64,000 bases of DNA from Candidatus Accumulibacter conexus (GTDB lineage: Bacteria > Pseudomonadota > Gammaproteobacteria > Burkholderiales > Rhodocyclaceae). How positions within the stretch are numbered: the first letter of the stretch is position 1; every line of letters begins with the position of its first letter. Shown here piece after piece: positions 53,956 through 55,710 of this stretch. Location: positions 62,001 to 126,000 of the forward strand of contig JAGFNJ010000002.1 in assembly GCA_017592775.1 (NCBI GenBank). Reading direction: 5' to 3'. Both the position numbers and the translations under genes were made by a program. The notes beneath the pieces are model-generated. The model saw only the letters and a list, made by a program, of their open reading frames with translations, searched no databases and was not told where the DNA came from.

Positions 53956-55710
53956 TCATTCGCCGATGATCTTGCGCACGACATCGGTCATCGAGATGAC
54001 GCCGACCGGCTGCTCCTTCTCGGTGACCACCAGGCGATGCATCCGACGGCCGGTCATCAGGCTGACCGCGTCGCTCAGCAGCATGTCCGCATCGCAGGTT
54101 GCGCAACCGGGGGTCATGACCTGGCTGGCCAGCATTGCGCGTGCCTGATCGGGTGTCCGGCCCTGCCGTGCCAGAACCATGTCGGTTTGCGAGACGACGC
54201 CGATGGCCTTGCCTTGCCCATCCATCACCACCACGGCATGAATCTCCTTCTCCACCATGATCTTGGCCACGGTGCCGATGGTATCGTCAGGCGTGCAGGA
54301 AATGATGCCCATATGCATCAAGTCGCGCACCTTGCTGCCATCGTCGGCGATGGTCAGCGCCTGAGCTTCCTCAATACTTGGCAACGGCTCGGACATCGGG
54401 TACGGATGGGGTGTGGTATGCACGTCGCCCTTGGGCAGCGTCGGATGCACCATCGTCACGGCCGGCTTGCCGCTGGCACCCAGGCCGAACCCGGTAGCGC
54501 CAATCAGCACCGACATGTTGCCGTGCGGGTGCTTGTTGTCGTGCATCAACTGATGGGCAAGCGGCAATTCTTCGTAGGTGAACGCTCGTGACAGGCATGG
54601 ATCCAGTTGGCCCCGCAACGCCAGTTCGTTCATCTCGTTACATTGCACGGTATTGGCGAAATGCGAGCCTTGCAGGCGCTTCTGCCGCATCCACAGGTAA
54701 CGCAGATCGACCGTTGCATTATAGCCGGAGGTGCCGGCGCAGACGACGACCATACCGCCGGTTTCGCAAACGAAAATCGAGGTCGGGATGGTGCTCTCAC
54801 CGGGATGCTCGAAGACGATGTTCGGCGCGCGCTTCTCACCCAGGACTTCCCAGATCTTTGCACCGAAGGAGCGCACGCCCTTCAACCACTTGGCGTAGCC
54901 GGCGTTGTCCTTCCAGTGTGGCAACATGCCCCAGTGATCGAAGTCGTTGCGGTTGATGCAGCCTTTGGCGCCGAGCTTCATGCAATAGTCAAACTTGTCC
55001 TCGCCTGACACCATGGCCACCGACGTTGCGTCGACCGCCTTGGCGATCTGAATCGCCATCGAGCCGAGACCGCCCGCGCCGCCCCAGATCAAGGCCACAT
55101 CTCCCTTCTTGATCGAGCTGGCGCCCCAGCCGTGCAGCATTCGCCAGGCGGTCGCAGCGACCAGTGTATAGGCTGCCGCCTCTTCCCAGTTCATGTGCTT
55201 GGGCTTGGGCATGCACTGCTGGCCCTGCACGCGGGTGAATTGGGCAAAACTGCCGAAATTGGTTTCGTACCCCCAGATCTTGTACGTCGGCGAATACATC
55301 GGATCGCCGCCTTTCTTGACCCACTCGCAATTGCGACTGTAAGTGCCGCAATGCACCACCACTTCGTCACCGACCTTGACGTTGGTGACGTCCTTGCCGA
55401 CGGCGTAAACGATGCCGGACGCATCGCTGCCACCGATGTGGAAGTCCTCGGGTTCGCCGCCCTTGTTGCGCGCGGCGATCACATTGACCGGAATTCCCAG
55501 TCCCGCCCAGACGTTGTTGTAGTTGATGCCCGCGGCCATGACATAGACCAACACTTCGTCATCGGCGATCGACGGGGTATTGACCACCTCCTTCTGAAAC
55601 GCCTCGGTTGGCTTGCCAAAACGCTCCGGACGGATCAGCCAAGCATTCATCTTTTCGGGAACTTCGCCCAGGGGGGGCAATTCGCCAAGTGCATACAGCT
55701 GCTTGCTCAT
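53956..55710 (-). CDS. ccr: Crotonyl-CoA carboxylase/reductase with CBS-pair fusion
   Basis: 584 residues. Residues 1-415 are Ccr, an MDR enzyme that reductively carboxylates crotonyl-CoA to ethylmalonyl-CoA using NADPH and CO2; [17 protein letters not shown] is the cofactor loop and [12 protein letters not shown] [11 protein letters not shown] and [12 protein letters not shown] fit the family. Residues 459-584 are two CBS motifs ([48 protein letters not shown]). Usual Ccr ends near residue 430. CBS pairs bind adenine nucleotides, so allosteric control is likely but unproven. Start at ATG 55710 with AAAGGAG. Confidence 0.93.

Follow-up and report, generated by a model that had tools for sequence, protein, structure and literature searches.

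Is the crotonyl-CoA carboxylase/reductase (Ccr) encoded in a 64,000-nucleotide stretch of the Candidatus Accumulibacter conexus genome, the whole of which we call the window, truly fused to a pair of CBS domains, and what could such a tail do? The gene, ccr-CBS, sits on the minus strand, where its open reading frame (ORF; 53956..55710) starts with the ATG at 55710 and encodes 584 amino acids with a single stop, at the frame end; the same register of the plus strand contains 2 stops. A ribosome-site-like sequence, AAAAGGAG, lies upstream of the ATG. The fusion is real and conserved, a variant domain arrangement within a known enzyme family. From sequence, we put at about 55% the probability that this Ccr of the ethylmalonyl-CoA pathway is allosterically controlled by an adenine nucleotide at its CBS pair.

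The Ccr-CBS reading frame

Pfam assigns ADH_N to residues 50–171 and ADH_zinc_N to residues 214–363 of the protein, followed by two CBS stretches (85.2 bits), the best at residues 461–514, in agreement with the original prediction of a CBS pair at about residues 459–584, which named no strand. The enzyme belongs to the Ccr family TIGR01751 of NCBIfam, its score over residues 17–412 (Table 1) exceeding the cut-off of 378.55 bits, and the tail is a Bateman module, with two PF00571 domains over the cut-off and a CBS fold. The frame from Ccr into the CBS pair, likewise predicted to be continuous, has no internal stop and is shared by 23 of 28 genomes of the genus and by 71 of the 79 named loci at which the tail was found, which excludes a missed stop or an assembly error.

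These loci come from matching a profile of the tail to genomes of 84,980 species, from which 80 of 100 confirmed matches were kept, corresponding to at least 79 distinct loci; because the scan was pattern-seeded, its counts are minima and it misses distant tails. The 71 complete in-frame fusions are at least 570 amino acids long and come from different assemblies, which rules out a sequencing or annotation artefact. Five further loci (L123, L125, L129, L136 and L158) are cut by contig ends. It is very hard to believe that the fusion is an artefact or a selfish, functionless tail: two loci (L082 and L126) are broken in frame and one (L159) has no visible Ccr, as such an explanation would expect, but against these stand the complete copies, the full-length fusions in two one-contig genomes (G010 and G016) and in CP058705, titled a complete genome, and the purifying selection on the tail described below.

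Known Ccr enzymes had been described as single-domain proteins of about 430 residues, and this description stands. Ten distinct PDB sequences (E value of 1e-60 or better) are chains of 410–467 residues, none of the 51 plasmid records with a match has one place that covers 80% of the query, and 59 of the 61 Ccr-bearing genomes in a phylum sample are untailed (28 read as complete ORFs of 414–434 amino acids, the other 31 judged from the match range only). In the PDB, the catalytic part is closest to AntE (4y0k, 4y1b), 9kva and 4gi2, which share 52–56% identity with it (Foldseek) and have chains of 410–443 residues. The window's enzyme resembles the TIGR01751 Ccr of Methylorubrum extorquens (4gi2) and Kitasatospora setae (6na3/6owe) in the catalytic part from end to end, the glycine-rich cofactor motif, the aligned CO2-pocket residues and the operon partners of the ethylmalonyl-CoA pathway; whereas those solved chains comprise 410–467 residues, it continues past residue 410 with a linker and two CBS domains. 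The AntE-type Ccr, an enzyme of secondary metabolism, and 9kva share about 55% identity with it across the whole catalytic part, and both are without a CBS tail. Term searches of one open-licence library found no account of a Ccr-CBS fusion; "CBS" is absent from the text of PMC12604563 and PMC8956781, and "CBS domain" from that of PMC9041414.

Conservation and possible function of the tail

Conservation was counted over 72 sequences. The positions that we take to form the CO2 pocket (Asn, Phe, Glu and His) were mapped by alignment: N65, E149 and H350 are invariant (72/72 each), and the Phe position (Y148) is Tyr in 71/72 and Phe in one, 4gi2 likewise having Tyr. Both CBS domains contain the S/T-x-x-D motif, the nucleotide clamp of such domains, and the fold matches nucleotide-bound CBS pairs among others. 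G504, T509 and D510 of CBS domain 1 are found in 72/72 sequences and S507 in 71/72 (one Thr), while G570, S573, T575 and D576 of CBS domain 2 are found in 72/72 each. The tail is maintained by purifying selection, less strictly than the enzyme: the median ratio of nonsynonymous to synonymous substitution (dN/dS) is 0.062 for Ccr, 0.163 for the linker and 0.113 for the CBS part across 17 Accumulibacter-type sequences (136 pairs), values that are rough because the mean proportion of synonymous differences is 0.42–0.51.

In the mechanism that we favour, the catalytic part, to which a flexible tether connects the C-terminal Bateman module, would convert crotonyl-CoA, CO2 and NADPH to ethylmalonyl-CoA, the carboxylating entry to the ethylmalonyl-CoA pathway. 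Two subunits would most probably bring their CBS pairs together as a regulatory disc able to bind AMP, ADP or ATP at its phosphate-clamp sites, and ligand binding would alter the opening and closing of the subunits so as to raise or lower NADPH-dependent carboxylation; our guess at the sign is that AMP lowers activity. Acetate-derived crotonyl-CoA would accordingly be kept in the polyhydroxybutyrate (PHB) pool or sent to C5 metabolism and propionyl-CoA. Allosteric control is proposed because the flexible tether and the clamp-competent Bateman module are attached to a family with many tetramers, which are said in a preprint (PMC12632816) to bind cooperatively; control by energy charge in particular is what we infer. 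If true, it would explain how storage-cycling bacteria apportion carbon from acetate to PHB and to the ethylmalonyl-CoA pathway, and synthetic cycles of CO2 fixation would gain a switchable carboxylase that already exists in nature. No natural carboxylases faster than those of the Ccr family are known, according to PMC10176493, and Ccr-CBS is a good prospect for a naturally regulated one.

Enzymes with a regulatory Bateman module include IMP dehydrogenase, CBS-pyrophosphatase and cystathionine beta-synthase. They likewise combine a catalytic domain with a CBS pair that bears the nucleotide-clamp motif; their catalytic folds differ, and in IMP dehydrogenase the CBS pair is inserted, whereas that of the window's Ccr is C-terminal. 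For AcuB (9s4v and others), PMC13121692 describes a CBS module that reads energy charge in acetyl-CoA synthesis; AcuB is a separate protein with an ACT domain, acts on a deacetylase and shares 19% identity over the aligned part.

The tail might instead serve without any small molecule, as a module for oligomerisation or stability or as a docking site for another protein, such as an operon partner or one on the polyhydroxyalkanoate (PHA) granule. CBS pairs dimerise readily, the constraint on the tail is weaker than that on the enzyme, and the two tandem pairs found in Chloroflexota fit a scaffold as well as a sensor. The clamp serine and aspartate of both CBS domains, however, are kept in at least 71 of the 72 sequences although the identity of the tail to that of the window drops to 47% in the aligned set, which is beyond what a pure scaffold would need, and we regard such a role as unlikely, though deserving of serious consideration. 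A still less probable explanation is that the tail senses another ligand (S-adenosylmethionine (SAM), cyclic di-AMP (c-di-AMP), NAD(P)H or a CoA ester) and so reports redox, methylation or second-messenger state rather than energy charge. CBS pairs with SAM/methylthioadenosine (MTA) (3kpc) and with c-di-AMP (8ad6, 5ks7) are among the top fold matches, tied with AMP-bound ones; the fold and the motif do not discriminate, and nothing in these data favours those ligands over adenine nucleotides.

Several observations weigh against control by an adenine nucleotide. In the fold search, DarB with c-di-AMP (17.6) and MJ0100 with SAM/MTA (17.3) fall within 1 Z unit of AcuB; the ligands of CBS pairs elsewhere include SAM, c-di-AMP and Mg-ATP, and some pairs have none. 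Compared with the catalytic part, the CBS part has a dN/dS about 1.8 times as high. The full-length model is of moderate quality, with a mean predicted local distance difference test (pLDDT) of 73.3, a predicted template modelling score (pTM) of 0.64 and catalytic segments under 50, so that it does not fix the placing of the tail relative to the catalytic part. The closest untailed relative, described below, indicates that such a Ccr does not depend on a tail, and PMC12632816 also reports a dimeric member of the family.

Distribution and exchange of the fusion

At a Ccr match threshold of 1e-60, the five genomes of the genus that do not carry the fusion show no Ccr match. Within the family f94, to which loci named Competibacteraceae belong, 23 of 39 genomes match; the fusion is full-length in 19 of them, and the other 4 contain fragments or a broken copy. 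Ccr occurs in 3 of 150 genomes in the sample of the window's own family, all from the window's genus, one of 68 sampled (Propionivibrio was not seen there), in 4 of 369 in the class sample (again at 1e-60; 3 fused, 1 untailed) and in 61 of 398 in the phylum sample, where three candidates were scored per genome, so that second copies may be missed. The objection raised with the original prediction, that the tail could be a common feature of Ccr, does not hold, as it is present in 2 of the 61 phylum-sample genomes and in none of the 51 plasmid records: the fusion is rare in Ccr overall and the rule in one subfamily.

Named carriers comprise Accumulibacter, Propionivibrio (including P. aalborgensis), Competibacter, Contendobacter, Defluviicoccus (including CP058705), other Rhodospirillales, Gammaproteobacteria including Chromatiales, and Caldilineales/Anaerolinea of Chloroflexota. 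Titles such as Actinomycetales (L130) and Synechococcaceae (L126) may reflect errors of binning. Among the named fusions, the closest to the window's come from Candidatus Accumulibacter necessarius (94%), A. contiguus (93%) and A. vicinus (93%), although records very near the window may be excluded. Fusions in other families and phyla rule out a feature private to the genome or the genus. The suggested link to polyphosphate cycling is not supported in the form proposed: the same fusion is found in glycogen accumulators (Competibacteraceae, Defluviicoccus and Propionivibrio aalborgensis) and in Chloroflexota, which also rules it out as a marker of polyphosphate accumulators, and the Ccr-less genomes of the genus (5/28) count against the link as well. 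Taken from its distribution, the fusion appears to define a laterally spread Ccr subfamily that is prominent in phosphate- and glycogen-accumulating organisms and not confined to them.

The complete Chloroflexota proteins (L152–L157) are 758–779 amino acids long; for L152 the Pfam count of CBS domains is four, and each of the other five has a second match to the tail. An Mcd-type gene, 44–46% identical to that of the window, follows ccr in L152–L156. Two full-length copies of Ccr-CBS are present in one genome in four cases from family f94 (G600, G583, G582 and G570) and also at L151, and the flanks of the second-copy loci L109, L116 and L119 hold no other pathway gene at the thresholds used.

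A Ccr tree was built from 411 columns of the catalytic part with 72 fused rows, the untailed L033 and 28 other untailed rows. All 72 fused rows lie on one side of a branch with support 85/75, and the fused rows together with L033 lie on one side of another branch (100/100), apart from the 28 other untailed rows. This topology favours one origin of the fusion without proving it. L033 (1501–2745, minus strand), the closest untailed relative and sister to the fused rows, comes from a genome (G098) that is 81% complete and encodes 414 amino acids with 67.6% identity to the window's enzyme; its lack of a tail may be the primitive state or a loss. Downstream of it lie a glyoxalase/epimerase-like ORF and an Mcd-like ORF, both named by eye.

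Accumulibacter and Competibacteraceae, which belong to different families of the class, group together in the tree (46 rows, 100/100, with L128 and L130). The complete Ccr-CBS proteins of Competibacteraceae are mostly 83–87% identical to that of the window (L127, 76%), and the neighbouring genes reach about 69% for the mutase, about 48% for MeaB, up to 80% for Mcd and up to 82% for the quinone-oxidoreductase. The grouping across families, taken with the presence of Ccr in only 1 of 68 sampled genera of the window's family, suggests that ccr, and perhaps some of its neighbours, spread laterally. Transfer from Competibacteraceae to Accumulibacter was considered and is not established. The first tree nested Accumulibacter inside Competibacteraceae; a constraint that keeps Competibacteraceae together improved the likelihood by 5.98 (approximately unbiased test, p-AU 0.583), and a single clade of all Accumulibacter/Propionivibrio including A. 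iunctus was not rejected (p-AU 0.492). Since neither constrained topology is rejected, the direction of transfer is not settled.

At four Accumulibacter loci (L089, L091, L095 and L107), MeaB, and Ecm where present, are 92–97% identical to those of the window, and Ccr only 86–88%; conversely, Ccr of A. necessarius (L114) is 94% identical and the flanking pathway genes 83–89%. This mismatch indicates that ccr alone was exchanged between relatives by recombination, and such an exchange probably took place in the window's own lineage.

Operon context and a possible outlet to pyruvate

ccr-CBS is the last gene of a tightly spaced minus-strand series, DUF6986–Mcd–Mch–B12 mutase–MeaB–Ccr-CBS, with gaps of 36, 42, 2, 7 and 12 bases (Table 1). 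The presence of ccr with ecm, mcd, mch and meaB identifies an ethylmalonyl-CoA pathway operon, and Pfam, the clamp motifs and the fold bear out the prediction of a Ccr with an intact CBS pair inside such an operon of an Accumulibacter-type genome. The quinone-oxidoreductase-like gene adjoins ccr in most Accumulibacter and Competibacteraceae loci. Rfam at gathering scores gave one tRNA and nothing else between 45000 and 64000.

Table 1. Position of ccr-CBS, its parts and its neighbours in the window.
Feature	Position	Strand	Evidence
ccr-CBS, crotonyl-CoA carboxylase/reductase with CBS pair, 584 aa	53956..55710	-	ORF, Pfam, NCBIfam
Ccr catalytic part, residues 1–410	54481..55710	-	TIGR01751 552.4 bits; PDB 4y0k, 9kva, 4gi2; conservation in 72 sequences
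Linker, residues 411–458	54337..54480	-	Model; residues 424–453 pLDDT <50; median dN/dS 0.163
CBS domain 1, residues 461–514	54169..54330	-	Pfam PF00571; clamp motif G504-V-V-S507-Q-T-D510
CBS domain 2, about residues 528–582	53965..54129	-	Pfam, 2 stretches; bounds approximate, from predicted structure; clamp motif G570-V-I-S573-M-T-D576
DUF6986 protein, 480 aa, heads operon	61723-63165	-	587.4 bits; weak similarity to HpcH/HpaI and malyl-CoA lyase models
Mcd-type acyl-CoA dehydrogenase, 562 aa (Mcd by context)	59998..61686	-	Pfam acyl-CoA dehydrogenase domains; position kept in many relatives
Mch, mesaconyl-CoA hydratase-type	58768..59955	-	Pfam PF19315 MC_hydratase 75.7 bits
B12 mutase, ethylmalonyl-CoA mutase-type (Ecm by context)	56747..58765	-	Pfam MM_CoA_mutase and B12-binding
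MeaB-type mutase GTPase chaperone	55723..56739	-	Pfam MeaB 214.4 bits; 12-base gap to ccr
Quinone-oxidoreductase-like protein, downstream of ccr	52816..53793	-	PIG3-family model, score under its cut-off

A second mutase elsewhere in the genome is 38% identical to that of the operon, which is consistent with the operon gene being Ecm and the other Mcm. A close mutase (87–97% identical, two clipped by contig ends) occurs in 22 of the 23 fusion genomes of the genus and in 0 of the 5 Ccr-less ones, the sole fusion genome without it (G003) being 72% complete. Isocitrate lyase is found in 28/28 genomes of the genus, so that the ethylmalonyl-CoA pathway is an addition to the glyoxylate shunt and not the sole anaplerotic route. 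Earlier reports describe raised transcription of the pathway in Accumulibacter, chiefly in type I, when phosphate is low (PMC12604563), hold it to supply propionyl-CoA in Contendobacter (PMC8956781) and report it in Defluviicoccus (PMC9041414).

Just past the window, three plus-strand genes stand in a row (contig 126745–130269; L164 14745–18269), from about 0.7 kb to about 4.3 kb beyond the window end: Mct, an HpcH/HpaI lyase and a second MC_hydratase protein. The Mct protein is a CoA transferase over the cut-off for mesaconyl-CoA isomerase (TIGR04253, 836.8 versus 725 bits), and the lyase-type gene, about 2 kb past the window, is a candidate for beta-methylmalyl-CoA lyase. The names Mcl (lyase) and Meh (second hydratase-type) are our assignments from position and general pathway knowledge, and we take Mct, the lyase and the second hydratase to be the distinctive second-cycle set of the 3-hydroxypropionate bi-cycle. 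PMC6593406 reports enzymes of that bi-cycle from Accumulibacter, Competibacter and some Chloroflexi, among others.

Judged by gene content, Ccr, the mutase, Mcd and Mch with Mct, Mcl and Meh could convert acetyl-CoA and CO2 to pyruvate. Crotonyl-CoA and CO2 would give mesaconyl-CoA and then acetyl-CoA and pyruvate, for a net conversion of acetyl-CoA and CO2 to pyruvate. A wider proposal, which we consider doubtful and give only a slim chance, is that Ccr-CBS would be the energy-charge gate of an unnamed storage route that links PHB to glycogen without ferredoxin and is passed laterally between phosphate- and glycogen-accumulating bacteria. Across groups, co-occurrence favours the route to pyruvate: a TIGR04253 match (1e-40 or better) is present in 56 of 70 fusion genomes and 7 of 60 untailed-Ccr genomes (Fisher p 9e-16, ignoring relatedness), and a match over the curated cut-off in 29/70 and 0/60, respectively, with 0/19 among the fused Competibacteraceae; four Competibacteraceae genomes with broken or fragmentary fusions (three with a match) are excluded from the 70. 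Weighing against a link between the fusion and Mct, Ccr-less genomes also match TIGR04253 (4/5 in Accumulibacter and 7/16 in Competibacteraceae), and a match is absent from all six Chloroflexota carriers and from the Defluviicoccus SSA4 genome. A coupling of the CBS tail to Mct is therefore not shown, the association across groups being absent within them, and this within-group pattern makes the presence of Mct a property of lineage.
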